From assembly GCF_000473895.1 (NCBI RefSeq), contig NZ_ASSJ01000074.1, positions 1 to 64,000 on the forward strand: a stretch of DNA of 64,000 bases, in the 5' to 3' direction. Position numbers and translations under genes: made by a program. The first letter of the stretch is position 1; every line of letters begins with the position of its first letter. This DNA comes from Rubidibacter lacunae KORDI 51-2. Lineage in GTDB: Bacteria; Cyanobacteriota; Cyanobacteriia; Cyanobacteriales; Rubidibacteraceae. Under the pieces are notes generated by a model. The model was given only the letters and a program-made list of their open reading frames with translations, was not told where the DNA came from and searched no databases. This document shows, one piece after another, positions 8,566 through 25,976 of this stretch.

Positions 8566-9036
8566 ATGAGTGCTGAAGCTGAAAATTCCCAAGAAGCCGG
8601 GCTGCAGGTGCAGCTCTTGGAAACGAGTTTTGAGAAAGTCAAGCCGCGTGCTGAGGAGTTTGCCAGCAGTTTCTACGAAAACCTTTTTGCCGACTACCCC
8701 GATGCCAAACCGCTGTTTGCGAACGCGGATCTCAAGGCTCAGAGTAAGAAGCTCTTGGCATCCCTGGTATTCGTCGTCGAGAATCTCAAGAAGCCGGATG
8801 CCCTGACCGAAGCCCTGAAGGGGCTGGGCGCCCGCCACGTTGAGTACGGTACGCTCCCCGAGCACTATCCCCTTGTCGGCAATACGCTGTTGAAAACGTT
8901 CGCGCAATATCTCGGTGAGGGGTGGACCCCTGAGACCGAGAAGGCTTGGGCCGAGGCTTATGGTGTTATCACCGAGGTGATGCTAGATGGTGCTGACTAT
9001 TCGCAAGCCGAGGTGCAGCTTGAGTCTGCTCCTTGA
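8566..9036 (+). CDS. Single-domain globin, likely truncated and chimeric paralogue of the tandem globin
   Basis: A 156-residue globin of the flavohemoglobin/Vitreoscilla type. Tyr37 (B10), Phe51 (CD1), Gln59 (E7) and His91 (proximal F8, in GLGARHVEYG) can all be placed. The ATG at 8566 was chosen because its product aligns from the first residue with the two-globin protein encoded at 17303-18409; a longer frame adds 19 poor residues. The N-terminal part matches globin domain 1 of that protein, while the end (YLGEGWT...SQAEVQLESA) matches domain 2. The frame stops where an IS end begins, so a C-terminal tail and membrane helix present in the paralogue are missing. It probably still binds heme and O2 or NO. 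Confidence 0.85.
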   Translation: MSAEAENSQEAGLQVQLLETSFEKVKPRAEEFASSFYENLFADYPDAKPLFANADLKAQSKKLLASLVFVVENLKKPDALTEALKGLGARHVEYGTLPEHYPLVGNTLLKTFAQYLGEGWTPETEKAWAEAYGVITEVMLDGADYSQAEVQLESAP

Positions 9037-13654: not shown

Positions 13655-14149
13655 CTAACCCGCTTCGACTAACTCGCTCAACCGCCGAGCCAGGATCGAC
13701 TGCGGCACTTTACCCACCAGCGTATCGACTGCAACGCGATCGCCATTCAACAGCGTCAACTGCGGCACGCCATTGACCCCAAACTCGCGGATTTGGGAAC
13801 TCCACTGCGGGTCGTCAATATCCAGCATCACGAAGTTCACTTGCGTGGCAAAGCGATCGCGTAACGCCATCATGTCCGGAGCGAGTGCCTGACAGGTCGT
13901 ACACCAATTGGCATAAAACTCGATCAGCGTCGGCTGCGGATTTGCCATGGCGTCGGGGTAGGGAGTTGCATCGCGGGCGAGGGTTTTGAGCGCCACCAGT
14001 CCGCTTGCCAAGGACGGACTCGTCGCCGCTAGTTGCGGTTGCGCGAGCAATAGCGTCGCGATCGCAAACAACCCGATGACGGCCAGCGCGATCGCCTGCG
14101 GGTGGATTTTCTCGAAACTGCGTTTGAGCAGGTCTATGTTGATAGCCAT
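13655..14149 (-). CDS. Membrane-anchored thioredoxin (TxlA/HCF164-like)
   Basis: The 164-residue protein has one N-terminal membrane helix (about residues 18-36) and then a thioredoxin fold with active site FYANWCTTCQALAP and the cis-proline loop GVNGVPQLTLL. Membrane-tethered thioredoxins of this type face the lumen or periplasm and reduce the haem-binding cysteines of apocytochrome c in the System II (Ccs) maturation pathway. It is last in the six-gene minus-strand series with multiheme cytochromes, 68 bp after the cytochrome b-like gene. That supports a role in keeping those cytochromes' CXXCH cysteines reduced. ATG 14149 precedes the helix directly. Confidence 0.82.
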   Translation of the reverse strand: MAINIDLLKRSFEKIHPQAIALAVIGLFAIATLLLAQPQLAATSPSLASGLVALKTLARDATPYPDAMANPQPTLIEFYANWCTTCQALAPDMMALRDRFATQVNFVMLDIDDPQWSSQIREFGVNGVPQLTLLNGDRVAVDTLVGKVPQSILARRLSELVEAG

Positions 14150-14217
14150 AATCGTGTCCGAAAGTTTGGCTCGACAAGCGATAGAGCCCCAATCGGTCTC
14201 CATCGCCGAACGGTTTC

Positions 14218-14883
14218 TTACTGGTAGTAGTAAGCAAGTGCAATATGGAAGATCGATAAAACGGAAAAGATCGAAACCAAGAAAATGTGCGCTGACAGCC
14301 AAATCGCGCGCATCCCGCGAATCAGCGGACCTTTCGTCAGCACCTGACCGCCCGGCAACCGGAGGAAGACGCGACGAGAGGACTCCAGAACGCCCGACTC
14401 AGCAACAACGCCGACCAAGGCCGAAAGCGTGACCGCAAAAAACACCCACAGGAATATCGCATTGAAGTTCAGTCCGTTGACCCCCAGAGTGTGAACCAAG
14501 ACCATCCCGACCAAGCCGACGCCCAGGAAAATGTGCAACCGGCGCCAAAACTGCAACGTACCGGGAAGCTTAACCTTCACGACCCAGCCGCGTCCGCGCT
14601 TGCGCGCCGCCAACAGAACCTCAAACAACAGGAACGCTAGGGCAATGTAACCGGTCGTCTGCTTGTAGATTTCTCCGCGCAAGAACGTGTGTAAGTCGAT
14701 CGAGCGATCGCGCAAATAATCGAGGTAGATGGCACTGAAGGCAAAGGGTGTCAGGAGTGCTGCCACAACCAGCGTCAGCACAATCAACGTCCGAAACGTC
14801 GGCTGGATGCCTCGCGACGGTTTGAGCTTAGGCGACGACGATGCCCGAGCGGGCAGGTCCACGGGAGAAGCTGAGTCGGACAT
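14218..14883 (-). CDS. Di-heme cytochrome b-like membrane protein
   Basis: The 221-residue protein has about four to five membrane helices. Two histidine pairs, His117/His131 and His199/His213, each 14 residues apart, lie in two hydrophobic helices (RRLHIFLG...VLVHTLG and LSAHIFLV...IFHIALAYY). That is the arrangement that ligates two b haems across a four-helix bundle. Such proteins take electrons from quinol or pass them across the membrane. Its place between a DUF3365 lipoprotein and a thioredoxin, in a series with multiheme c cytochromes, suggests it links the plastoquinone pool to them. It belongs to no named complex that I recognise. Confidence 0.68.
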   Translation of the reverse strand: MSDSASPVDLPARASSSPKLKPSRGIQPTFRTLIVLTLVVAALLTPFAFSAIYLDYLRDRSIDLHTFLRGEIYKQTTGYIALAFLLFEVLLAARKRGRGWVVKVKLPGTLQFWRRLHIFLGVGLVGMVLVHTLGVNGLNFNAIFLWVFFAVTLSALVGVVAESGVLESSRRVFLRLPGGQVLTKGPLIRGMRAIWLSAHIFLVSIFSVLSIFHIALAYYYQ

Positions 14884-15024
14884 GAACCTTAGGGAGAGAA
14901 AGTAAAGCTGGGTAGGAGCGCGAGCGGTTCCAAATTACGGGGAAAACTGGGAAACCGCCCGCGATTTCCCAGTTCTATCGAGAGAATGCGAGGGCGATCG
15001 CGCGCGATCGCCCGATGAGGGCAT

Positions 15025-15690
15025 TTATGCACCTGCGAGGGGGATGTTGATGATGATCCCACCCATCACTTCATCCATCTCGAACAACTTGTCGGGATAG
15101 CGCTCCAGGTGAATCGGGTGGGTATTGTGGCAAGTCACGCAGGCCTCAGCCACGGCCTTGTCAGGGTAAAGCGCCGAGAAGTACTGCTGGCCGGCAACCT
15201 CTTGGTAGCCCTTGTACGGCTCGCCCGTGGCAATCGTTTCATCCATCGCCGTCTGCTCGAAGTCACCTTTGGGAGCGTGGTTGTCGTTGATGTACCAGGG
15301 GGAAATCAGGTTGTAGGTGAAGTATCCCGACTCGTTGGCGATTTCCGAGCCAAGGCGGAACATTTGAGCGGGCAGTGGAATGCCGTCGGTTTGTTGCCAC
15401 CCTTCCGTTGCTTCAACAGTCAGGACGCCGTTGTCTTTGGCTTTCCCTTCCAGCGTCTGCGCGCGGTTGACCACGTGCTTGGTGTAAGCCGTCCGATCTG
15501 CGGCCAGTACGGTGTGGATGTAATCGGCAACCAGCTCGGGGGCAATGCCGGCGCTTGCCTGGCTGGTGTCGGCACCGCCACCGCTGCAGGATACTGCCGT
15601 AACGCAGACGGCTATGACGATCGCGATGAAGGCAACGGTCCGCGTCCGCACGCGATCGAGCCAGGTTTCCAGTTCGTTTGCAAAGTTCAT
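15025..15690 (-). CDS. DUF3365 (Tll0287-like) mono-heme c lipoprotein
   Basis: The 221-residue protein has an N-terminal hydrophobic segment ending in a lipobox-like VTAVSC, so it is probably a membrane-anchored lipoprotein. The rest matches the Tll0287-like/DUF3365 fold. It has the PAQMFRLGSEIANESGYFTYNLISPW region, QYFSALYPDKAVAEACVTCHNTHP with one CXXCH haem site, and a C-terminal GGIIINIPL strand. Tll0287 has a PAS-like shape with a haem c and is considered a redox sensor or carrier. ATG 15690 is preceded by AGGAG with 11 bases between. The 106-bp gap before it contains an 11-bp tandem repeat. Confidence 0.82.
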   Translation of the reverse strand: MNFANELETWLDRVRTRTVAFIAIVIAVCVTAVSCSGGGADTSQASAGIAPELVADYIHTVLAADRTAYTKHVVNRAQTLEGKAKDNGVLTVEATEGWQQTDGIPLPAQMFRLGSEIANESGYFTYNLISPWYINDNHAPKGDFEQTAMDETIATGEPYKGYQEVAGQQYFSALYPDKAVAEACVTCHNTHPIHLERYPDKLFEMDEVMGGIIINIPLAGA

Positions 15691-15719
15691 AAGTGAACGA
15701 TCTCCTCTTGGTCTAAGTC

Positions 15720-15750
15720 GGGTAGGGATTGGGTAGGGATTGGGTAGGGA
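15720..15750. repeat. Tandem repeat of GGGTAGGGATT
   Basis: GGGTAGGGATT is repeated head to tail at 15720-15730 and 15731-15741, and the first nine bases again at 15742-15750. It lies in the gap between the hexaheme gene and the DUF3365 gene. It may affect the message between the two genes or simply be slippage. Confidence 0.7.
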
Positions 15751-15796
15751 AACAGGACGTAGGGTTCGCAGCAGGCGAACGTTGGTGTTGACGAAG

Positions 15797-16627
15797 CTAC
15801 TCGGAAGCATCCTTCTGGTCCCGACCCGCCCGGCGCTCCTCGAGCGCGCGGATCAAGTCGAAGGTCTGCAGCGAGAGGGTTGGCGGGCGATCGAAGTTCG
15901 CCTCCACCAACTCGTCGTCAAAAATGCTGTTGTAGCCGAATTCGACACCGTGGCAGTTGGCACATACCTCGCCCACCATGCGATCGCGCGGCAGCAGCGT
16001 GTAGGTGTTGTTGTGATTGACCAGGGTGACGGCATTATCACCTTGTCCGTGCTCGTAGCGCGGGAGGTGACAGGTGGCGCAGCTCACGGCCGTGGCGCTC
16101 GGGCGCGGCAAACTCTTGGATGCTTCAAATAGCCCGGCGTGGGCGGAGTCGCGATAGTTCTGCGAGTGCGTGTCGTTGTGACAGGTCAGGCAGGAATCGA
16201 CCGACGCCACCACCGTATCGACCGAGTGCACATCGTGGCAGGTGTTGCAGGTCATCAGCAAGTCGCGCGCCTCGGCATGCATGGGAAGTCGCGCAAGGGC
16301 GGGCTTGAGCGGCGATTCACCTTCAAGCAGGCGAATGCCGTGCTTGCCCAGCAAGAACGTATCCACCGACTGCTCGTGGCAAGACCGGCAGCTTTCATAG
16401 GTCGGCTTGGCTACAAAGCTCTTGGTCTCGGCATCTTGGTGGCAGCTCGAACAATTGACCTCGCCGAGGGCATGCGCGCTGGTTTTCCAAAGCTGCGTTG
16501 CCTCTTCAACCGCTGCTGGTGCCAGGCGATCGGCAGCCGCTGGTGTCAACCAATTGCTGTACCATCCGAACGCCACGAGCAGCGCCACCAGGCAGAGTGC
16601 GAACCGGGTCGTGCGAGTCAGTATCAT
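15797..16627 (-). CDS. Hexaheme c-type cytochrome
   Basis: The 276-residue protein begins with a signal anchor (residues 6-28, ending near TPAAA) and contains six CXXCH sites: CSSCH 59, CRSCH 80, CNTCH 127, CLTCH 146, CATCH 183 and CANCH 222. Many extra histidines (HDVH, HSQNYRDSAHAG, YEHG) can serve as second ligands. The CHDVHS...SCLTCHNDTH pairing resembles the doubled-CXXCH and hydroxylamine-oxidoreductase-like multiheme cytochromes. It would carry electrons at the periplasmic or lumenal face. Its ATG overlaps the stop of the pentaheme gene (TGATG), so the two are translationally coupled. A longer upstream frame overlaps the previous gene and was rejected. Confidence 0.88.
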   Translation of the reverse strand: MILTRTTRFALCLVALLVAFGWYSNWLTPAAADRLAPAAVEEATQLWKTSAHALGEVNCSSCHQDAETKSFVAKPTYESCRSCHEQSVDTFLLGKHGIRLLEGESPLKPALARLPMHAEARDLLMTCNTCHDVHSVDTVVASVDSCLTCHNDTHSQNYRDSAHAGLFEASKSLPRPSATAVSCATCHLPRYEHGQGDNAVTLVNHNNTYTLLPRDRMVGEVCANCHGVEFGYNSIFDDELVEANFDRPPTLSLQTFDLIRALEERRAGRDQKDASE

Positions 16628-17277
16628 CACGCACCCCCTCCCCGGAACTCCTTCTGCAAGTCCGGCGCTGGAGCGACTTCCAGCGTCGGGACGATCGCGC
16701 GATCGCGCAGCTGCTGTACCGGTAGCATCGGCGGTTGGTCGATATTCTTGCGCAGGAAACCCGTCGAGATCGTGCGGTGGTCGTGAAAGTTGTGACAGCC
16801 TGCGGTCCAGCACCCATCAGGCGTAAAGCCGTTGTGGCTGATGAGGTCGCCGGTAATGATGCCCTCGTGGCAGATCGTGCATAGATCCGGCTGTAAGTGG
16901 ACCCCGCGCCCGAACATATGCACGTGCTCGTTATGGCAAGTCGTGCAGGTCAGCACCTCCAGCCTTTGCAAGCTCCCGGCCCAGCGCGGGTCCAAAAACT
17001 TCTTGCGACCGTGGACATCCGTTGCCATCTCGGCTTCGTGGCAGCGAGTGCACGTTTCGTTCGTCACGGGTTTGAAACCCTCATGACATGAATTACAAGA
17101 GGTCTCGAACAAATAGTGACCGACCGAAGTTTCGCCAGGCAAGAAGATCTGCTTCGCGTCCAATGCAAATGCCGCAGAAAGCCACGTCACCAGCACCACA
17201 CAAGCAAGAAAAACCGCACCCTTGAAACCAAACAGCGATCGCCATCGAAACCGTCTTTGCCGTGCAGTAGATGCCAT
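16627..17277 (-). CDS. Pentaheme c-type cytochrome with one CX4CH site
   Basis: The 216-residue protein has a positively charged start and one membrane helix (residues 19-38). Four standard haem sites follow (CNSCH 61, CTRCH 76, CTTCH 111, CTICH 133), plus an atypical CWTAGCH at 156-162, where four residues separate the cysteines (CX4CH) as in some cytochromes c3. The spacing resembles NapC/NrfH- or c3-like small multiheme proteins. With the retained N-terminal helix it may be membrane-bound and take electrons from quinol or from the cytochrome b-like protein. It starts 25 bp after the tandem globin gene and overlaps the hexaheme gene by one base. Confidence 0.87.
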   Translation of the reverse strand: MASTARQRRFRWRSLFGFKGAVFLACVVLVTWLSAAFALDAKQIFLPGETSVGHYLFETSCNSCHEGFKPVTNETCTRCHEAEMATDVHGRKKFLDPRWAGSLQRLEVLTCTTCHNEHVHMFGRGVHLQPDLCTICHEGIITGDLISHNGFTPDGCWTAGCHNFHDHRTISTGFLRKNIDQPPMLPVQQLRDRAIVPTLEVAPAPDLQKEFRGGGA

Positions 17278-17302
17278 ATCGCTACTATCCGAGACCCCCT
17301 TC

Positions 17303-18409
17303 CTAAAGCAACAGCAGCAGGAGAATAATTGCTGTCACGCCCCCAGCAACAATCCCCGCAACAAGTCCCACATTCGTGCCCTCATCAAACTCGTCTGAAG
17401 AGTCTGATGCGTGTAATGTCTGGGTGTCCGCCGTTGCTCCTGGTACTGATTGCGTCACGCCGTTCCCAGGACGGGCAGACTCCAGCCGTACCTCGGTTTG
17501 TGAATAGTCAGCACCATCTAGCATCACCTCGGTGATGACACCATAAGCCTCCGTCCAAGCCTTCTCGGTCTCTGAGGTCCACCCCTCACCGAGATATTGC
17601 GAGAACGTTTTCAACAGAGTATTGCCGACGAGGGGATAATGCTCGGGAAGAGCACCGTACTGAACGTGGCGCGCACCCAGCCCTTTGAGGGCTTCCGATA
17701 GTGCGACCGGATATTTAAGGTGGGCAACGACGTAATCCAACGATGACAGCAACTTCTTGCTTTGAGCCTCCATATCGGTGCCGGAGAAAAGAGGCTTGGC
17801 AGCAGGATAATCTGCAAACAAGTTGTTATAGAAACTGCGGGCAAACGCTTCGGCACGCGGCTTGACCAGCGCAAAGCTGCCTTCCAGCAATCCAACTTGC
17901 AACCCACTGTCGCCCTCAGCTTCCGCTTCCGCTTCGGTGGCCGCAACTGCTGCCAACTTCACGTTGTCTGGCGAGTAATCGGCACCGTCCAGCATCACCT
18001 CAGTGATGACGCCATAAACCTCGGTCCAAGCCTTCTCAGTTGCAGGCGTCCAAGCATCGCCAAGATACTGCGCGAACGTTTTCAACAGTGTATTGCCGAC
18101 AAGGGGATAGTGCTCGGGGAGTGCACCGTATCGAACGTGGCGTGCGCCCAGCCCCTTGAGGGCTTTAGTCAGGGCATCGGGGTTCTTGAGGTTATCGACA
18201 ACGAACACCAGGGATGCTAAGAGCTTCTTGCTCTGAGCCTTGAGATCCGCGTTCGCAAACAGTGGCTTGGCATCGGGGTAGTCGAAAAATAGGTTTTCGT
18301 AGAAACTGCTAGCAAACTCCTCAGCACGCGGCTTGACTTTCTCAAAACTCGTTTCCAAGAGCTGCACCTGCAGCCCCGGTTCTTGGGAATTTCCAGCGTC
18401 AGGACTCAT
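17303..18409 (-). CDS. Tandem two-globin protein with C-terminal membrane helix
   Basis: The 368-residue protein holds two flavohemoglobin-type globin domains: residues 10-148 with proximal His91, and 168-306 with His248. Both have Tyr at B10, Gln at E7 and a shared GLGARHV.YGALPEHYPLVGNTLLKTF stretch. An Ala/Glu linker joins them. An acidic linker (SDSSDEFDEG) leads to a C-terminal hydrophobic helix, residues 346-368, so the globins are tail-anchored to a membrane. No reductase domain is present. It heads a co-directional series with multiheme cytochromes 25 bp downstream, which could supply electrons. ATG 18409 was chosen; a TTG two codons earlier has slightly better ribosome-binding spacing. 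Confidence 0.85.
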   Translation of the reverse strand: MSPDAGNSQEPGLQVQLLETSFEKVKPRAEEFASSFYENLFFDYPDAKPLFANADLKAQSKKLLASLVFVVDNLKNPDALTKALKGLGARHVRYGALPEHYPLVGNTLLKTFAQYLGDAWTPATEKAWTEVYGVITEVMLDGADYSPDNVKLAAVAATEAEAEAEGDSGLQVGLLEGSFALVKPRAEAFARSFYNNLFADYPAAKPLFSGTDMEAQSKKLLSSLDYVVAHLKYPVALSEALKGLGARHVQYGALPEHYPLVGNTLLKTFSQYLGEGWTSETEKAWTEAYGVITEVMLDGADYSQTEVRLESARPGNGVTQSVPGATADTQTLHASDSSDEFDEGTNVGLVAGIVAGGVTAIILLLLLL

Positions 18410-18415
18410 CGCCAA

Positions 18416-19261
18416 TACGGGTCTCCAAAATAATGCGGGGGTTAAAATCCGAAACCAAATAAATCCGGAAGAAACTGTGCGAACTCTAGCCCGACCTTAC
18501 ACCACGAGGCGCAAGCGATCGCGCATGCAAAAACGGCCGCGAAGCATCAGTTCTAAAGTCCGACGTAAGCAGTTTAAGAGCGAGCAACTATTAAATCGTT
18601 TGCTCGCACGAGACTCTTACCGAAGCCGATCCAGATATTACCAGCACTTTGAGATAATATCGAGTATTCCGATTCGCGTATCACTGATTACAAACATTAG
18701 CTCGCTCGTCGGGAGTGATTTTGTCTAAAACGCTACGAAACCTCAGTGATGCGATTGCATGATGAAAGTTGTTCTTGCAATATATGCATGATGATGCGCC
18801 CCCCAAGCGCGAGCCCCTGCCAATGCAACCAGCTCTGAGAAATCTGTTTCGCTTTGCTGCGGAACTTCAGATGCAATGTCCGTGGTTCTGGCTTGGCATC
18901 CTCGTGCAAAAAGATGTCCGAATCAGTATCAGATACTACGGCATGACAAAGAACGATTCGACATGCGCATAGCTTTCATGCGGTTTTTTTTGCACGCTCT
19001 GTGGCATGACATGCTGATGCATTTCTTGCATTAAGGGGCGCGATTTTGCAATGTTTTTTACAAAAGATTGCGCACTGGATTTGCCATCCTAATAGTCGCA
19101 TATGACTCCGATCGCACTGAAGCTCGGTTTTACTTCAAATGTGGCGAGTTAGACTGGGGCACCATTGCAGCTACTGCCGGCATTGTCGGTTCGGTCAGCT
19201 GGAGTTACCAAGTAATAACTCAGCGCAAGTACTACGCGTCTCCTCCCTACGATGATGTTTC
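18416..19261. promoter_or_regulatory. Divergent control region between the globin/cytochrome series and ccs1
   Basis: This 846-bp space separates the minus-strand globin-cytochrome genes from plus-strand ccs1 and must hold both promoters. Bases 18750-19060 are unusually rich in GCATGA, TGCAT and TTGCA-type words. The 10-mer TGCATGATGA is repeated at 18756-18765 and 18785-18794, and GCATGACATGC lies near 19002-19012. They may be binding sites for a regulator. A short frame 19068-19265 ends in an ATGA overlap with ccs1. Confidence 0.35.
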
Positions 19262-19265
19262 ATGA
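19068..19265 (+). CDS. Possible short ORF overlapping the ccs1 start (65 aa)
   Basis: This frame ends TGA inside an ATGA junction, where ccs1 begins at 19262, a typical sign of translational coupling. Its second half, ELDWGTIAATAGIVGSVSWSY, could form one membrane helix. The N-terminal part looks random and the real start, if any, may lie inside. It could be a leader peptide or chance. Confidence 0.22.
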   Translation: MRTGFAILIVAYDSDRTEARFYFKCGELDWGTIAATAGIVGSVSWSYQVITQRKYYASPPYDDVS

Positions 19266-21061
19266 CTGCTAAGTTCGTTCGTTTTCTCGGGTCCGTCCGA
19301 CTAGCCGTACCTTTGCTAGTTGCGATCGCAGTTATTTCGATCGCAGCAACGTTCTATGAATCGACGGTCGGGTCGTCCGTCGTGCAGCAGGCGGTTTACA
19401 AAAGTCCCTGGTTCGGCGCGCTGATGTTCTTACTGGCGGTGAACTTGGGGGTATCTACCTTAAGTCGTTATCCTTGGCGCGGACCGCGTAAGATTGGCTT
19501 TGCCTTGACGCACTGGGGGTTGATTGCGATTATCGCTGGTTCGGCAGCTGTCATTCACCTCTGCGTTGAGGGGATGCTATTGGTTCGGACCGACAGCGAG
19601 CCGAATAACCAAGTTCGCTTGCAGGGAGAGGTGTTGGACGTCATTGACCCCGACGGCATGCAGCAACAAGCCGACATCTTCGTTCGCGCCGACGGGTCGA
19701 TATATCCCCCCCAAGTTGGCGATTTATCTGTGTCCGGCTACACCGAATCGGCGATTGCCTCAGCAACCTTTGCCAACGACGGAGCAGTTCGTAATCCAGC
19801 CGTGCGGTTGCGCTTGGAGAGCGATCGCATGGGTCAAACCCTGGAGCGCTGGTTAGCCCTGGCTCCGGCTGGCTACGTCCGCGTGACCGTCGGTCCGGCA
19901 CAGCTCGAGATCCGCCGAGCTGCCGATGAGGACGACCTGGAGCGGTTGTTGAGCCCGCCGTCCGATGAAGCGTGGGGCACGTTGGAGCTGAAGGTGGCAG
20001 GCGAAACAGCTGTCCTCGACGTGCGCGAACAGCTGGGGCAGACGGTCCGACTCGCGGACGCGATCGCAGTTCGGGTGGTGCGGGTGTTTCCAGACTTCCG
20101 CCTCGATGCGGACAACCATCCGACGACTGTATCCCAGGAGTTTCGCAATCCGGCCCTACAGCTTGAAGTATCTGCCCACGGTCAACGCGAACGCTGGTTT
20201 GTCTACGGGCGCGGGTTCGAGCCGACGCGCTCCGGTAACGATATCGCGCTAACCGCCAGCTATGCAGCCCCCCAAATCACTGCCTCCGACTACTTCCGCA
20301 TCGCGATCGCTCCCAGCGACAAACTGTTATATGCGGCGCGTTCGTCACAAGGGTTCAAACGCGGCGAGCTGAGCCTTGGCGAATCCGTAACGCCGGGCTG
20401 GGCGGACTTTCGCATCACGGCAATCGAGCGGCGCGATCGCGCCCGGTTAGTCCGACGCACGGTCCCCGTAACGCCCGTGGCAGCAGGGACGATGTCAACA
20501 GAGGCAGCGCCAGCATTGCACGTCGTCGCTTCGGATGGCAGCAACACCTGGTTGCCGTGGGGCGAACCAGCAACGCTGTCGACGGCCGGCGGCGATTACG
20601 TCGCGGCATTCAGTCCGAAGCGATTGCAGCTGCCCTTTTGGGTGAAGCTGGACGATTTTATTGTCGAGCGCAATGAGGGCAGCGACTCGGTCGCGATGTG
20701 GACGAGCCGCGTGACCTTGCTCGACCCGCAGCGCAATGAGATCGCTCGCCGCAACGTGTGGATGAACCATCCGACCTGGTTCCGGGGCTGGAAGCTGGCC
20801 CAAGCCTCTTGGAATCCCGGCGATTTACAGCAATCGACGCTCCAGCTCAAGCGCGAGCCCTGGTGGGTAACGGCCCTGACGTGGAGCGGTTCGCTACTAG
20901 TTGTCTCCGGCATTGCCACCATGTTCTACGGTCCGGCCCTCGCCAAGCAATTGCGCCGCCGCACCCAACCCAAGGCAATCGCGCCCGGGGTTGACCCTGG
21001 TATCGAGCCCGGTGGCGATCGCGTCGAGCCCGAGGCGGCACCGATTGCTGCCGGTCGGTAA
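19262..21061 (+). CDS. ccs1: Cytochrome c biogenesis protein Ccs1/ResB, enlarged form
   Basis: The 599-residue protein has three N-terminal helices (14-34, 46-63, 79-101) with SVRLAVPLLVAIAVISIAATFYES. A large periplasmic domain follows, then the family's final block LPFWVKLDDFIVERNEGSD...WMNHPTWFRGWKLAQASWNPG and a last helix SGSLLVVSGIATMFYGPAL. With CcsA it brings haem across the membrane and attaches it to apocytochrome c (System II). Typical cyanobacterial Ccs1 has, as I recall, about 440-460 residues. This longer version and its closing motif look more like the ResB of delta-proteobacteria or planctomycetes, suggesting transfer. It is followed by ccsA 95 bp later. Confidence 0.85.
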   Translation: MTAKFVRFLGSVRLAVPLLVAIAVISIAATFYESTVGSSVVQQAVYKSPWFGALMFLLAVNLGVSTLSRYPWRGPRKIGFALTHWGLIAIIAGSAAVIHLCVEGMLLVRTDSEPNNQVRLQGEVLDVIDPDGMQQQADIFVRADGSIYPPQVGDLSVSGYTESAIASATFANDGAVRNPAVRLRLESDRMGQTLERWLALAPAGYVRVTVGPAQLEIRRAADEDDLERLLSPPSDEAWGTLELKVAGETAVLDVREQLGQTVRLADAIAVRVVRVFPDFRLDADNHPTTVSQEFRNPALQLEVSAHGQRERWFVYGRGFEPTRSGNDIALTASYAAPQITASDYFRIAIAPSDKLLYAARSSQGFKRGELSLGESVTPGWADFRITAIERRDRARLVRRTVPVTPVAAGTMSTEAAPALHVVASDGSNTWLPWGEPATLSTAGGDYVAAFSPKRLQLPFWVKLDDFIVERNEGSDSVAMWTSRVTLLDPQRNEIARRNVWMNHPTWFRGWKLAQASWNPGDLQQSTLQLKREPWWVTALTWSGSLLVVSGIATMFYGPALAKQLRRRTQPKAIAPGVDPGIEPGGDRVEPEAAPIAAGR

Positions 21062-21156
21062 GCTCAGCTCGGATCGCTCGCACGCCAGCGATCCCTTTCA
21101 ACAAACCCGACCGCAATCCATTCAACCTACCGAACGCACGAACTCTACCAAACATC

Positions 21157-22884
21157 ATGAAAGTCCTGGCTGGCATCATCGGTTTTTGCTTGGGTTGCTT
21201 GCTGCTCCTGCTGCCGCTCGGGCAGTTTCAGCCCGACAACCTCGACTCGCTTCGTACCCTTGCCGTACAGCTCGACGGTCGCAAGAAACCGCTCGATACC
21301 GTTGCCAAGGAAACTGTTGCCCAAATCTACGGCGCGACGACCTACCGCCACGACGAGCGTGCCGAAGACTATTTCGACACGTACCTGTCGCTGTGGTTCA
21401 ACACGCGCAACTGGAATACCGAACCCTTCATTTTGGTCGGATATCGCCCGCTGCGCGAGGTCGTCGGTTTGGACCGCGATCGCAAGCGCTTTGCCTTCCA
21501 AGAACTCGTCAATAACAGCGAGTTGGGAGCCCTCGTGGGGCGGGCGCGACAGAAGCGCGCCGATGACCAAGACCTCGAGCGCCTGGAGCGCGAGGCGCTC
21601 GCCGTCGAAGACCGCGTGACGCTACTCTACAACGCGGTTGGCGACACCAATCTGCCGCTCGTGCCCCATCCATCCGATCTCAAAGGCACGTGGGTCGGAT
21701 TGTCGCAAGGGCAAAAGCTGTACGAGCCCGAAACGATCGCGCCGTTGCTGGCAGACTATGCGTTAATGCAGCAGACTCTGTTGAGTGGGGGTGCTCTCCA
21801 CTTAAACGCGATCGCTCCCTTGGCTGCTGCGCTGAAAGATGGCTTAACCGCCCTCAGTCCCGCAATCTATCCTGCCGACGCAGTCTTGGCGCGCGAGGTC
21901 CGCTTCAATCATTTCCATCCCTTTGCTAAAGCTTGGAAGCTTTATGGTTTGGCGTTCGCGATCGCCCTCGCCAGCATTGGGGTGCTGCGCCAGCCGCTGT
22001 ACTGGGGCGCGATCGGCCTCTTCATAACCGGAATTGGCATACAGACATACGGGTTCTGGGCGCGGATGCAAATTGCCGGTCGCCCGCCCGTCACCAACAT
22101 GTACGAGTCGGTGGTGTGGGTTGGTTTCGGGATTGCCGCGATCGCTTTAGTCTTCGAGCTATGCTCGCGCGCTCGCTACTACTTACTGGCAGCTGCTCCT
22201 CTGGCAATCGTTTGCTTGGTCCTTGCTGACAGCTTGCCTGCCGTTTTGGACCCCACGATCTCGCCGCTCGTGCCGGTTCTGCGCGATAATTTCTGGCTCA
22301 GCATCCACGTCCCGACGATTGCTCTCAGCTACGCCAGCTTTGCCCTAGCCCTCGGGGTGGGTCATGTAGCGATCGCCAATTACGTCTTTGCGCCGCAGGC
22401 GACACTGCGCCTCAAAACGCTTACGCAGCTCAACTACCGCGTCTTGCAAGTCGGCGTGCTGCTGCTGACGGCCGGCATCATCCTGGGCGGCATCTGGGCG
22501 CACTTCTCCTGGGGACGATTCTGGGGTTGGGATCCCAAAGAAACCTGGGCGCTGATCGCGCTATTGTGCTACGTCGCGCCGCTGCACGGGCGGCTCGTTG
22601 GCTGGATTGATGACTTCGGACTCAATGTCACCAGCATCGTGTCATTCAATGCCGTGTTGATGGCCTGGTACGGCGTCAACTTCGTACTCGGTTCCGGCTT
22701 GCACAGTTACGGATTCGGGACGGGCGGTTCGGAACTCGCGATCGCCAGTGTTGTCGGTGTGGATTTGTTGTTGGTTGCGATCGCGGCAGCCCGCCATGCC
22801 GGTTGGGGAAGTTCGGCGGAAACCCTAGCAGCCGAGGGAAATAATCGTAAACCGAGCGTTGAGATATCCGGTCTGGTTGACTGA
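21157..22884 (+). CDS. ccsA: Cytochrome c biogenesis protein CcsA, form with long N-terminal domain
   Basis: The 575-residue protein carries the tryptophan-rich haem-handling motif WGRFWGWDPKETWALIALL in its C-terminal part, along with about nine membrane helices from residue 265 on. Conserved histidines include SIHVPTIALS and PLHGRL. Ahead of this is a 240-residue extracytoplasmic region beginning LRTLAVQLDGRKKPLDTVAKET. That region is, as I recall, absent from the roughly 330-350-residue CcsA of most cyanobacteria but known in fused CcsBA-type systems elsewhere. It completes the haem ligase with Ccs1. Its neighbours suggest it serves the adjacent multiheme cytochromes. Confidence 0.87.
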   Translation: MKVLAGIIGFCLGCLLLLLPLGQFQPDNLDSLRTLAVQLDGRKKPLDTVAKETVAQIYGATTYRHDERAEDYFDTYLSLWFNTRNWNTEPFILVGYRPLREVVGLDRDRKRFAFQELVNNSELGALVGRARQKRADDQDLERLEREALAVEDRVTLLYNAVGDTNLPLVPHPSDLKGTWVGLSQGQKLYEPETIAPLLADYALMQQTLLSGGALHLNAIAPLAAALKDGLTALSPAIYPADAVLAREVRFNHFHPFAKAWKLYGLAFAIALASIGVLRQPLYWGAIGLFITGIGIQTYGFWARMQIAGRPPVTNMYESVVWVGFGIAAIALVFELCSRARYYLLAAAPLAIVCLVLADSLPAVLDPTISPLVPVLRDNFWLSIHVPTIALSYASFALALGVGHVAIANYVFAPQATLRLKTLTQLNYRVLQVGVLLLTAGIILGGIWAHFSWGRFWGWDPKETWALIALLCYVAPLHGRLVGWIDDFGLNVTSIVSFNAVLMAWYGVNFVLGSGLHSYGFGTGGSELAIASVVGVDLLLVAIAAARHAGWGSSAETLAAEGNNRKPSVEISGLVD

Positions 22885-22956
22885 CGGATATGTGGAGCGC
22901 GGACAACCGGCGCACCGTGTCAGTCAAGGCAAGCGATCTAGGCTGAAAAGAGGCAA

Positions 22957-22983
22957 GCGACCCGGCTGTGACAGCCGGGTCGC
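22957..22983. terminator. Perfect 12-bp hairpin after ccsA
   Basis: GCGACCCGGCTG and its complement CAGCCGGGTCGC are separated by three bases, 73 bp after the ccsA stop. The stem is very stable. No T-run follows, so it may stop transcription only partly or protect the 3' end. Confidence 0.5.
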
Positions 22984-23001
22984 TAAGCGCACGAACTATA
23001 G

Positions 23002-23105: not shown

Positions 23106-25976
23106 TCAAACCGTTGCTTCCCAATCTAAGGGTGCGCCGGTAGGTGAGAGGGGCGAATAGCCAATGCGGTTAACGCCGTCCATATACCAAACCAACGCCT
23201 CACCGTTAGCGCGGTTGCGCCAGAGCACGTCATCGTTGCCGTCGTTGTTGAAGTCGCCCGCCCCAGCAATCCGCCAAGGACTCTGAATCGGACCCGGAGA
23301 AAGCTGGGCGGAACCCGTAAGCTGAGTGTCATTCAAGAACCACACGGTGTTAAGCCCATTTTCTGAGTTGCGCCAGAGGATATCGGGGCGATCGTCGTTG
23401 TTGAAATCGCCGATACCGCTAATATCCCAGGCCAAGGTTGGGCCGGTAGGTGAGAGGGGCGAATAGCCAATGCGGTTAACGCCGTCCATATACCAAACCG
23501 TCGCCTCACCGTTCGCGCGATTGCGCCAGAGTACGTCATCCTTCCCGTCGTTGTTGAAGTCAGCCACCCCGGCAATCCGCCACGGTCCCTGAATCGGACT
23601 GGGGGTAAGCTGGGCGGAACTGACGCGTTGAGTGTCGTTCATGAACCACACGCTGTTAGTCCCGTTTTCTGAGTTGCGCCAGAGAATATCGACCTCGCCG
23701 TCGCTGTTAAAGTCGCCGAGTCCCCCAATGCTCCACTCCGTGGGAACGACATAGGGATTCAGCTGACTGACGCCGATGCGATTGGTATCGTCCATGAGCC
23801 AGACGCTGTTATTCCCGTTTTCGGTGTTGCGCCAGAGAATATCAACCTTACCGTCGTCATTGAAGTCAGCTGTGAGCCCGCCACCGCCACCACCGCTGAT
23901 GGGCGGTAGCGCCTCCAGGGCAGCATTGACATCGATCAGTCCGAAACCGCTGTTAAAGTCGTAGCCGGGTTGTCCCATATCGACGGCGGTCTCTTCGAGA
24001 ATTTGGTAAATTTGCTGAGGGCTAAGTTTGCCGGGACCGCCCTGAGCATCGAGTAATAGAGCGGCGGCGGCGGCGGCATGGGGAGCGGCCGCTGACGTTC
24101 CGAAAAAGTTAGGGAACCCGTCGCCCTCGAAGTCGCTACCGAAAAACGTTGTGTTGGTGCCGTCAGGGGCAGTAAAGCGAGGCTGATTACGGATTTCGGG
24201 TTGGGCGAGGAGATTGCCATTGGTATCGAAGAGAATTTGCGTGCCACCTGCAGATGAAAAGGACTCGAGTACAGGTGGAGTCGTCCCAAAAGCCGGCGTG
24301 TTGCCATAAAACGCTGCACCCACGCCGGCCGCGCCAGCAGCAGTCGGGTGGCCGAATGACGTAGGGCTGTTGGTGGCGTATTCGAAATTGATCCCCTCGC
24401 CAAAGTTAATGTACTTGATGCGTCCGGGATTACTGCCGCCGACCGGAACATAGCGCCCGATCGCCAAGTTTAGAGTTTGCGTGCTGCCAGAAAAGTTGGT
24501 ATAGCTCAATAGCTCGACAGCATTGTTACCGATGTTGTTATTTACACTGCCCGCAACAATGGTTGTTGCACTGCTGTTGAGTAGGAAGATGTCGAGGTCG
24601 TTGGTCGACCCAGAACCGCCAGCAGAGGCAAAGGGCGAATCCCATTGAAACGAGAGGTCGAGCGTTTTGCCAGGACCGAGTTGTAGTTGCTGGTAGATAT
24701 CAATTCCGCTGCCGGGGTTGAAATCGTGAAAAATGTAGCCTGAGCTTATAGAGTCATCGAGACCGAGACGGAAATCGCTTTCATAGGAATCGCGACCGCT
24801 GTTTCCCGCCGCAGAAAAGTAAGCTACCCCCGCCGCTGCCGCGGCATCGGCGGCTTGAGCAATAATACCGTCCTGGAAGAAGGGCTCGTTCAAGTAGCCA
24901 ATGTCATCCACAATAATGTCAGCTCCCGCAGCAACGAGTTCGCCAATGCCTTGAGCGAAGTCGGCAGAACCGAGAAAAGCGGTGCGGAACAGCAACGTCG
25001 CACCGGGGGCAACATCGTGAATGAGTTGCATCATGGCGCGGCCCTCATCGCTGCCGCCAAATGGCAAATCCCCGATGACGTTGATGTTGCTCGTGCGTCC
25101 GAACGGGTTGCCCGCGCCCGGCAGATCGCCGCTGGCTATATCGGCACCAGCTCCACTCAGATTGTTGTAGCTATCGGAGAGCACGCCGATCGTTATGCCG
25201 CTGCCATCGACTCCGAAGAATTGCTGGCTGCCCAGGTCGGCCTGAATCGCAGCAACCCCCTGACTGGTCGTTGCGCCAACGCTTTTAATGGGCTGAGCAG
25301 TGGGTAGCAAGTACTCCAAGCTAGACAAGTTTTCCACGTTCGCGATCGCGTCAGTCGGCAGCCAACCGGAAACCACGCGCCCGTACCTGCTGGCATCCTG
25401 CAAGCCCAGTTGCTCCAAATCGGCCTGCAAGGCTGTCCCTGAGCCCGAAGCGATCCCTTCCACAGCTACAAGTCCGTCGCGCACTATGGCGCTTGCATCG
25501 ATCTCCGCTTCGTCAGTTGGTGTCTGCCCGACTTCTCCCAGAGCGCTGAGGACGTAGCTCACGCGATCGGACAGGGGATTCAACCGCTGCAACCTAATCG
25601 GGAACAATAAATCTGTTTCCAGCTCAAAGGTGTTGCCGTTTTCTACGACCTCCAAAGGTCTACCGTCGAGCAAGTCATCGTTCGTTGCCAGTCCGAAGAC
25701 AACTGCACGCGAGTCCGACAAAGGTTTAACAGCAGCTCGAGGCAATAGCTCTTTAAAAGGCAGCGGCCCGACAAACACCTCGCCAATCCAAGGCTCGCTC
25801 TCGATTGTGGAGTCTGTTCCGGAGGTGTTCACAACGGCGGGACCCACAAGGCCAAAGGTTGGCGCGGAAGAAACGCGTTCGGAATCTCGGCGGAACAAGC
25901 GTGCCGTCGGAGTTGGACCGACAGCGCCTAAGACAGGCGCTATGGCAGGCAGAATTATGGAACTTGCGGTTTTCAT
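23106..25976 (-). CDS. Subtilisin/sedolisin-like extracellular protease with FG-GAP-type repeats
   Basis: The 956-residue protein has a serine-protease core from about residue 255 to 690. It shows GSGITIGVLSDSYNN (catalytic Asp strand), SDEGRAMMQLIHDVAPGA where a subtilisin would have HGTHV, AAAAGVAYFSAAGNSGRDS (oxyanion Asn), and FFGTSAAAPHAAAAAALL with the nucleophilic Ser. Glu in place of the catalytic His recalls sedolisins or a divergent S8 group. A glycine linker leads to five repeats of about 50 residues with DFN.DGK.D.LWRN, calcium-binding FG-GAP/VCBS-like blades. No classical signal peptide is seen, so export is uncertain. It may act on proteins or peptides outside the cell. Confidence 0.75.
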   Translation of the reverse strand: MKTASSIILPAIAPVLGAVGPTPTARLFRRDSERVSSAPTFGLVGPAVVNTSGTDSTIESEPWIGEVFVGPLPFKELLPRAAVKPLSDSRAVVFGLATNDDLLDGRPLEVVENGNTFELETDLLFPIRLQRLNPLSDRVSYVLSALGEVGQTPTDEAEIDASAIVRDGLVAVEGIASGSGTALQADLEQLGLQDASRYGRVVSGWLPTDAIANVENLSSLEYLLPTAQPIKSVGATTSQGVAAIQADLGSQQFFGVDGSGITIGVLSDSYNNLSGAGADIASGDLPGAGNPFGRTSNINVIGDLPFGGSDEGRAMMQLIHDVAPGATLLFRTAFLGSADFAQGIGELVAAGADIIVDDIGYLNEPFFQDGIIAQAADAAAAAGVAYFSAAGNSGRDSYESDFRLGLDDSISSGYIFHDFNPGSGIDIYQQLQLGPGKTLDLSFQWDSPFASAGGSGSTNDLDIFLLNSSATTIVAGSVNNNIGNNAVELLSYTNFSGSTQTLNLAIGRYVPVGGSNPGRIKYINFGEGINFEYATNSPTSFGHPTAAGAAGVGAAFYGNTPAFGTTPPVLESFSSAGGTQILFDTNGNLLAQPEIRNQPRFTAPDGTNTTFFGSDFEGDGFPNFFGTSAAAPHAAAAAALLLDAQGGPGKLSPQQIYQILEETAVDMGQPGYDFNSGFGLIDVNAALEALPPISGGGGGGLTADFNDDGKVDILWRNTENGNNSVWLMDDTNRIGVSQLNPYVVPTEWSIGGLGDFNSDGEVDILWRNSENGTNSVWFMNDTQRVSSAQLTPSPIQGPWRIAGVADFNNDGKDDVLWRNRANGEATVWYMDGVNRIGYSPLSPTGPTLAWDISGIGDFNNDDRPDILWRNSENGLNTVWFLNDTQLTGSAQLSPGPIQSPWRIAGAGDFNNDGNDDVLWRNRANGEALVWYMDGVNRIGYSPLSPTGAPLDWEATV
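23136..23606. repeat. Near-identical DNA repeat units within the FG-GAP region
   Basis: A block starting GCCGGTAGGTGAGAGGGGCG at 23136 recurs at 23442, 306 bp later (102 codons, two repeat units). About 55 bases are identical and similarity extends for some 150. This indicates recent duplication or gene conversion of repeat pairs inside the protease gene. Confidence 0.8.

Follow-up and report, generated by a model that had tools for sequence, protein, structure and literature searches.

Why would a cyanobacterium keep a globin, two multihaem cytochromes c, a haem lipoprotein and a membrane cytochrome b side by side, next to genes for cytochrome c assembly? The question is raised by Rubidibacter lacunae KORDI 51-2, in which such a locus lies at positions 13655-22884 of the window (the whole stretch of DNA that was analysed, 64,000 nucleotides of contig NZ_ASSJ01000074.1). 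An earlier note on this DNA had listed eight open reading frames (ORFs) here, and all of them are found: on the minus strand, in this order, genes for the globin, a pentahaem cytochrome c (c5), a hexahaem cytochrome c (c6), a DUF3365 lipoprotein, the cytochrome b and a thioredoxin, and on the plus strand the divergent genes ccs1 and ccsA. Pfam backs seven of the eight proteins, with two Globin domains, cytochrome c3/c7-type domains in c5 and c6, and the Tll0287-like (that is, DUF3365), thioredoxin, ResB and Cytochrom_C_asm families. Found as a block in scattered cyanobacteria, these genes would encode a membrane electron-transfer chain of about fourteen predicted haems, along with haemoglobin-like proteins. 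The gene set probably deals with nitric oxide (NO) or related nitrogen oxides, and the explanation that we favour, while giving it no better than an even chance, is a nitrogen-controlled membrane redox module that keeps these compounds in check during nitrate assimilation.

Conservation of the core genes

Relatives of the locus were collected by a scan of the GTDB contig collection, from which the best 80 of 143 were kept, 61 of them cyanobacterial and 19 not. Presence was counted only in loci whose contig was judged long enough, with a crude flank rule for ccs1 and ccsA. By this count c5 was present in 56/56 cyanobacterial loci, the globin in 49/49, DUF3365 in 58/58 and the cytochrome b in 55/55, and the thioredoxin in 40 of the 51 with enough flank. 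Gene order and strand were constant in all 48 cyanobacterial loci that hold the five core genes, and the random separation in related genomes that would speak against a single unit, as the earlier note had proposed it, did not occur. The core (globin, c5, c6, DUF3365 and cytochrome b) is a conserved unit. Within the window the stop codon of c5 overlaps the start of c6 in a TGATG junction, the remaining gaps are 25 bp (globin to c5), 106 bp (c6 to DUF3365) and 141 bp (DUF3365 to cytochrome b), and no terminator-like match on the minus strand falls between the minus-strand genes, the one weak match lying inside the cytochrome b gene.

The c6 gene was detected in 28 of 291 sampled genomes of the class, representing 16 of 131 genera, and the 27 carriers besides the window genome all come from orders other than its own. 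In a c6 tree, a branch supported at 100/100 sets the 60 cyanobacterial rows apart, and within them the window belongs to a cluster of five that also holds Leptolyngbya, Nodosilinea and Limnothrix (97/85); long branches weaken the remaining topology. Since no c6 was seen in the sampled genomes of the window's own order, either transfer within the cyanobacteria or loss in the relatives must be assumed.

The view that this is a purely cyanobacterial system has to be given up, for the core occurs in at least five further phyla, with examples in Poribacteria, Dadabacteria, Verrucomicrobiota, Planctomycetota and Pseudomonadota. It is rare there, with 3/398 sampled genomes in Pseudomonadota, 4/246 in Planctomycetota and 6/240 in Verrucomicrobiota, the seed genome being counted.

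Apparent nitrogen control and the nitrate setting

The sequence GTA-N8-TAC occurs within 500 bp upstream of the operon globin in 37 of 51 cyanobacterial loci, the window included; these are the loci, out of 62, in which both c5 and the globin are present and the upstream sequence extends to 300 bp or more, and near-identical strains such as the four of Moorena were counted separately. In a thousand dinucleotide shuffles the count averaged 2.8 and rose no higher than 8. Only the spacing of 8 is enriched among half-site spacings from 2 to 15 (37 against 0-4 elsewhere), and when all 64 three-letter inverted repeats are compared at 8-nt spacing GTA comes first, followed by TTT (31) and AAA (28), whose high counts reflect the AT-rich sequence (38% GC). 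A -10 box (TAN3T) stands 20-24 nt past the site in 24/51 loci, at exactly 22 nt in 17 of them, whereas shuffled sequences averaged 0.33 such loci and never exceeded 4. Where other genes of these loci are concerned, their upstream regions carry the site in 51/312 cases and the site with a -10 box in 5/312. According to the available text of PMC3898017, GTA-N8-TAC followed by a -10 box is the canonical NtcA-activated promoter. Judged by these patterns, the cyanobacterial module appears to be under the nitrogen regulator NtcA. The window as a whole holds 10 matches to GTA-N8-TAC against 3.9 expected. CRP-, FNR- and NsrR-like patterns, found upstream of the globin in 1, 3 and 3 of the 51 loci against 0.2, 0.8 and 6.4 expected, make no case for regulators of those kinds.

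The nitrogen-oxide link that the earlier note had suggested is backed both by these sites and by the surroundings of the core in other phyla, where an NrtA-like, NarK-like, NirA or NasA-like gene lies within about 9 kb in 12 of 29 genomes (a raw tally that carries no background rate and treats the loci labelled L128 and L144 as one genome). In two Verrucomicrobiota loci, L140 and L141, one flank of the module has NasA-like, Fe-S/DmsC, NirA and flavodoxin-reductase genes, and the other has an Alginate_exp-type porin (scanned in L140) with NrtC-, NrtB- and NrtA-like genes. Scored against NCBIfam models, NirA from L140 clears its cut-off of 523 bits with 725; NrtB from L141 misses narrowly, at 205 for a required 209, and NarK from L128 misses by more, at 285 for a required 312. 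For the NasA-like genes the assimilatory nitrate reductase model is best or second best, though the scores stay well under its threshold. The matches of NrtA are confined to the broad NMT1_2/SsuA families, and its name therefore rests on context. A molybdopterin oxidoreductase of family PF00384, presumably NarB, is present in 23/23 carriers (best E 1e-65 or better) but also in 19/20 non-carriers, the comparison, like that of nifD below, being between the window genome plus 22 of the 27 other carriers and 20 genomes without c6. Taken together, the nitrate clusters, the NtcA-type sites and the globin point to NO or a related nitrogen oxide as the substrate.

The haem proteins and the linked assembly genes

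The module globin is of the flavohaemoglobin type but has no reductase domain; it is tandem in the window, has one to five domains per protein across the cyanobacterial modules and a single domain in the non-cyanobacterial relatives. Its nearest solved structures are single-domain flavohaemoglobin-like globins. At the pocket positions that we take to be B10, E7 and F8 in helix labels, the aligned cyanobacterial domains have Tyr in 99/102, Gln in 101/102 and His in 102/102, respectively, and in three domains of the whole set, L054 and L058 among them, His replaces Tyr at B10. A simple rule finds a hydrophobic C-terminal tail in 43 of 61 cyanobacterial globin proteins, the window's included. In some loci another, distinct globin, extended at its C-terminus, is encoded near the cytochrome b and thioredoxin genes (L054:11597-12127, L058:4072-4599 and L072:7066-7608). 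The window itself has a further globin gene on the plus strand, some 4.6 kb past the end of the module and outside the locus of the earlier note. In the Cerasicoccus locus, L115, what looks by eye like a truncated haemoglobin stands in place of the usual globin (L115:5900-6277, plus strand), and an Rrf2-family regulator gene lies by the module (L115:4229-4666, plus strand).

Alignments covered 22 of 27 available c5 sequences, 23 of 28 for c6, and fused c5-c6 proteins from 16 of the 19 non-cyanobacterial loci. Every c5 row has four CXXCH motifs and one CX4CH (22/22), with 11 invariant His, and every c6 row has six CXXCH (23/23), with 12 His columns conserved at 90% or more (one column in 22/23). 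Outside the cyanobacteria the two are a single 11-haem protein in 25 of 30 loci by automatic ORF choice, and also in L128, L129 and L133 by direct translation; L144 is from the same genome as L128, only the tblastn match of L133 was used, since a stop interrupts its longer range, and gaps in L131 leave it out of the judgement. All 16 fused rows hold 11 haem motifs and 22 His columns. Each of the 11 c-haems thus has a conserved second His available, although the ligand pairings are candidates drawn from the alignment, and c5-c6 is for this reason more likely to be a wire than an obvious enzyme. In profile searches c6 matches 6h5l (E 1e-7) and NrfA (E 3e-5), and in fold comparisons with HAO-like proteins and NrfA it reaches Z scores of 7-8, with a Foldseek E of 4.5e-3 on a model whose mean predicted confidence (pLDDT) is 59; it weakly resembles HAO, hydrazine dehydrogenase and NrfA. 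The AlphaFold2 model of the fused protein has a pLDDT of 59, and its c5 half is unreliable.

The cytochrome b has just one Pfam match, to DUF4405 below threshold (E 0.018), yet the earlier claim that it is di-haem is borne out by exactly four invariant His (117, 131, 199 and 213) in 23/23 aligned rows, forming two pairs 14 residues apart. In an AlphaFold2 model (pLDDT 80) the pairs lie on helices 110-132 and 184-219, and the four residues would be the ligands of two haems stacked in the membrane. A fold search with this cytochrome b gave cytochrome b561 as its best match, which is not significant (E 0.17). In most non-cyanobacterial loci, judged by ORF length, the b protein forms the C-terminal part of a protein of 650-700 residues, and in all four that were scanned with Pfam (L116, L126, L129 and L130) the front part consists of Pyr_redox_2 and Fer2_BFD. 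The L126 fusion matches residues 1-465 of NirB at E 7e-123. The b protein stands alone in both Dadabacteria, and the flavoprotein part is absent from the window's b protein and from all 10 cyanobacterial b proteins aligned. The fusion to an NAD(P)H flavoprotein in most relatives suggests that the donor there is something other than plastoquinol.

The lipoprotein carries PF11845 together with a CXXCH motif, the combination that marks sCache_heme proteins. Its lipobox Cys is invariant, and beyond it none of the 25 aligned rows has a Cys outside the CXXCH, so that the module's form offers no candidate for the Cys/His ligation of the Tll0287 type. A profile search of the PDB with the DUF3365 rows returned nothing at E 0.01. 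In the available text of PMC12889525, the DUF3365 family includes other members that lack an axial Cys, and tight NO binding is reported for one of these, a signalling-type haem protein.

The ccs1 and ccsA genes are additional to general copies, as the earlier note had implied, for elsewhere in the window genome contig C53 encodes a CcsA with a better match (E 8.5e-72, the one here having 3.7e-30) and contig C17 a stronger ResB. That they are the only copies, which the note had named as part of a refuting outcome, is thus not the case. CcsA copy numbers were compared between 22 of the 27 other carriers (five genomes of 62-83% completeness were left out) and 20 non-carriers, which are those listed in the c6 survey and not a random draw. 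Two copies are found in 21 of the 22 carriers, one at about 240-255 bits and one at about 100-120 bits, and in the exception, G217, the module lies at a contig end. Among the non-carriers 18 of 20 have one copy, and in G136 a single contig bears two copies of equal score; G150, a non-carrier from the window's own family, has a CcsA of the divergent type. The window's CcsA stays below the NCBIfam cut-off for CcsB (159 against 187.6 bits). In cyanobacterial loci judged long enough, ccs1 is present in 30/45 and ccsA in 21/28, with ccs1 upstream and divergent in 20 of 61 loci; neither gene lies within 9 kb in L078, L095, L101, L108 and L111, and among the 19 non-cyanobacterial loci only L123 has ccs genes, the core being kept nonetheless. 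Linkage within the core is therefore tight, and the maturation pair accompanies it often but not always. A Mantel test on 12 genomes, in which c6 correlated with the linked CcsA at r 0.90 and with the general CcsA at r 0.81, does not separate the two, and its c5 values were spoilt by a truncated row.

A locus in G150, L179 (G150:C1:1387500-1407400), keeps a ccs1 with its middle missing, ccsA, a thioredoxin gene and a shortened cytochrome b, along with Rieske-, ChaN- and pentapeptide-repeat-like genes and transposase-like ORFs (named by eye). No match to the globin, c5, c6 or DUF3365 was found in it, and it appears to be the same locus in decay.

Table 1. Positions in the window of the module genes, the NtcA-type sites and a nearby globin gene.
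Feature	Position	Strand	Basis
Tandem globin, C-terminal hydrophobic tail	17303..18409	-	two Globin domains (Pfam)
c5, pentahaem cytochrome c, N-terminal hydrophobic stretch	16627..17277	-	4 CXXCH + 1 CX4CH
c6, hexahaem cytochrome c, weakly HAO/NrfA-like	15797..16627	-	6 CXXCH; profile and fold similarity
DUF3365/Tll0287-like (sCache_heme) mono-haem lipoprotein without axial Cys	15025..15690	-	PF11845 E 3.8e-18
Di-haem membrane cytochrome b	14218..14883	-	four invariant His; no Pfam family over cut-off
Membrane-anchored thioredoxin, putative maturation role	13655..14149	-	PF00085 E 1e-16
Second Ccs1/ResB	19262..21061	+	ResB E 3.9e-14
Second, divergent CcsA/CcsB	21157..22884	+	PF01578 E 1.6e-29
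NtcA-type site GTA-N8-TAC upstream of globin	18678..18691	.	starts 282 bp before globin ATG
Further GTA-N8-TAC, same divergent intergenic region	18926..18939	.	pattern match
Single-domain globin, membership uncertain	8566..9036	+	close paralogue of tandem globin

The starts given by the ORF caller for c6, DUF3365, the thioredoxin and the globin are too long, and relatives place them near 16627, 15690, 14149 and 18409, respectively. Just past ccsA, at 22956-22984, the minus strand has a strong 13-pair hairpin with a T-rich tail, possibly the terminator of a gene at 23106-25976. Several genes recur near the module in cyanobacteria, according to a neighbour clustering that left out ORFs rich in Arg, Pro or His. 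Among them are a pentapeptide-repeat protein, in 39/62 loci, and a ChaN-type haem-binding protein, in 12/62; examples of the two lie at L054:13135-14013 (plus strand) and L055:5070-5993 (minus strand). A Rieske [2Fe-2S] protein with a twin-arginine-like and lipoprotein-like start, usually encoded beside ccsA, recurs in 25/62 (e.g. L066:2496-2960, minus strand), and may be a ninth part of the module. No Rieske gene was seen beside the window locus; the window genome has four elsewhere, one of which (on contig C79) is 30% alike to the Rieske proteins of the other loci.

What the module may do, and how it compares

These proteins may be connected as a chain across the membrane. Electrons would enter at the b protein on the cytoplasmic side, in the relatives from NAD(P)H through the FAD and [2Fe-2S] centres of the same polypeptide and in the cyanobacteria, where the flavoprotein domain is absent, from ferredoxin or plastoquinol; we read the cyanobacterial version as the relatives' chain with a different electron entry. 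They would then cross the membrane by way of the b haems and pass along the c5-c6 wire to the haem of the lipoprotein, which would bind and reduce NO or a related nitrogen oxide on the outer or lumenal side. The globin would handle cytoplasmic NO, by dioxygenation to nitrate or by reduction at low O2, with the b protein or the flavoprotein as its reductant, and Ccs1, CcsA and the thioredoxin would mature the 12 c-haems. A bolder form of this proposal, which we put forward as rather unlikely in its full extent, is that the module represents a new class of membrane-spanning nitrogen-oxide complex. In such a complex a cytoplasmic reductant would feed a di-haem b, an 11-haem bis-His wire and an outward mono-haem, NO-binding lipoprotein, and together with the membrane globin it would remove NO on both faces, in at least six phyla, being nitrogen-controlled and equipped with its own cytochrome c assembly in the cyanobacteria.

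Several observations weigh against control of nitrogen oxides during nitrate assimilation as the function. No nitrate gene of the kinds named above lies nearby in 17 of the 29 non-cyanobacterial genomes, including all Poribacteria and Dadabacteria, and none of the nrt, nir or nar type was recognised, by eye, among the recurrent neighbour clusters of the cyanobacterial loci. NtcA controls many genes beyond those for nitrate, and the window's own site at 18678-18691 is followed by TATTAT at 18 nt and has no -10 box at the canonical 22. In several non-cyanobacterial genomes no globin match was found near the core. A regulator that senses NO is not shown either, as the Rrf2 gene of L115 is equally close to the RirA and NsrR models and stays under the threshold of each. 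Moreover, the available text of PMC12889525 reports a stand-alone DUF3365 protein that bound NO weakly even with its Cys removed, and redox roles proposed for the stand-alone forms; on both counts, NO binding by the module's lipoprotein is only possible, a guess.

The same cytochromes could serve as an electron outlet, passing surplus photosynthetic or respiratory electrons to an extracellular or periplasmic acceptor, with nitrogen control setting only the timing. The membrane di-haem b, the 11 possibly bis-His c-haems, the outward lipoprotein and the lack of any evident open catalytic c-haem would suit this. We nonetheless regard it as unlikely: NtcA-type sites and nitrate clusters are not expected for a general valve, the globin is left unexplained, and inspection by eye of the genes that recur around the cyanobacterial loci, a survey of the loci and not of whole genomes, revealed no porin-cytochrome conduit.

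Somewhat more doubtful is the view that the module is a true enzyme that reduces nitrite, NO or hydroxylamine on the outside, with c6, as a member of the HAO/NrfA fold group, catalytic and c5 an NrfH-like feeder. The profile and fold matches of c6 and the nitrate-linked setting speak for it. Against it, the fold scores are middling, and the 11 distal His conserved for 11 haems leave no open haem evident. A NIR_SIR-family reductase, from a family that cannot tell nitrite from sulfite, is also kept in 19/19 non-cyanobacterial carriers.

We give little credence to the idea that the lipoprotein senses NO or redox state while the globins store haem for cytochrome c assembly, electron transfer being secondary. 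Where it is joined to signalling modules, DUF3365 acts as a sensor (in the available text of PMC12889525), and both the divergent ccs1 upstream and the occasional ChaN-type neighbour would fit with haem handling, but the core genes include no signalling output, the core persists outside the cyanobacteria where ccs genes are nearly always missing, and no cyanobacterial locus of adequate length lacks c5, DUF3365 or the b protein. Least credible of all is O2 removal for nitrogenase or other O2-sensitive nitrogen metabolism, with the globin binding O2 and the chain reducing it, for despite the NtcA-type sites, the globin and the nifD of some carriers, nifD is over its cut-off in 11/23 carriers against 13/20 non-carriers, which disfavours nitrogenase protection for want of any association, the match in the window genome is weak (E 1e-11), and relatives in other phyla adjoin nitrate genes.

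If the module does hold nitrogen oxides in check, it would bring an overlooked aspect of nitrate assimilation into view, namely how phototrophs and several little-studied phyla cope at the membrane with NO and other by-products. To our knowledge cyanobacteria are not known for multihaem electron wires; this one is conserved as a block, is usually accompanied by assembly genes of its own and looks nitrogen-regulated. The locus also supplies constant partners for DUF3365, a haem lipoprotein whose role, when it stands alone, is uncertain. No description of such a locus was found in the open-access literature searched, most subscription papers lying outside that search.

Its parts nevertheless have familiar counterparts. 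The ResB, Cytochrom_C_asm and thioredoxin genes of the window correspond to System II maturation (CcsBA with a thiol-disulfide protein), from which they differ in being a divergent second set linked to the module. The c6 protein aligns weakly with the HAO/NrfA multihaem superfamily, whereas each of its six haems, or of the eleven in the fused form, has a spare conserved His and no catalytic haem was identified. The fusion in L126 shares with NirB the FAD and BFD-type [2Fe-2S] part, but a di-haem b domain replaces the sirohaem part, and the cyanobacterial b proteins lack the flavoprotein part altogether. The lipoprotein resembles the stand-alone Tll0287/DUF3365 proteins of PMC12889525 in combining PF11845 with CXXCH and differs in lacking the axial Cys; the words "globin" and "multiheme" do not occur in the main text of that paper, as far as it was available.

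A nearer parallel in function may be the nasC operon of Bradyrhizobium, in which, by the available text of PMC4724949, a single-domain haemoglobin and an NAD(P)H flavoprotein mitigate NO arising from nitrate assimilation. That operon (narK-bjgb-flp-nasC) has four genes and no cytochrome b, multihaem c, DUF3365 or System II component, and its flavoprotein is described as typical of cytoplasmic oxidoreductases, while the cyanobacterial module has no flavoprotein domain. The NAD(P)H/FAD reductase being absent from the window operon, the latter is not filed as a member of the Bradyrhizobium type. The two nevertheless share a flavohaemoglobin-type globin that lacks a reductase domain of its own, and the non-cyanobacterial relatives come closer still, with their NAD(P)H/FAD protein and, in some, genes for nitrate transport or reduction nearby.

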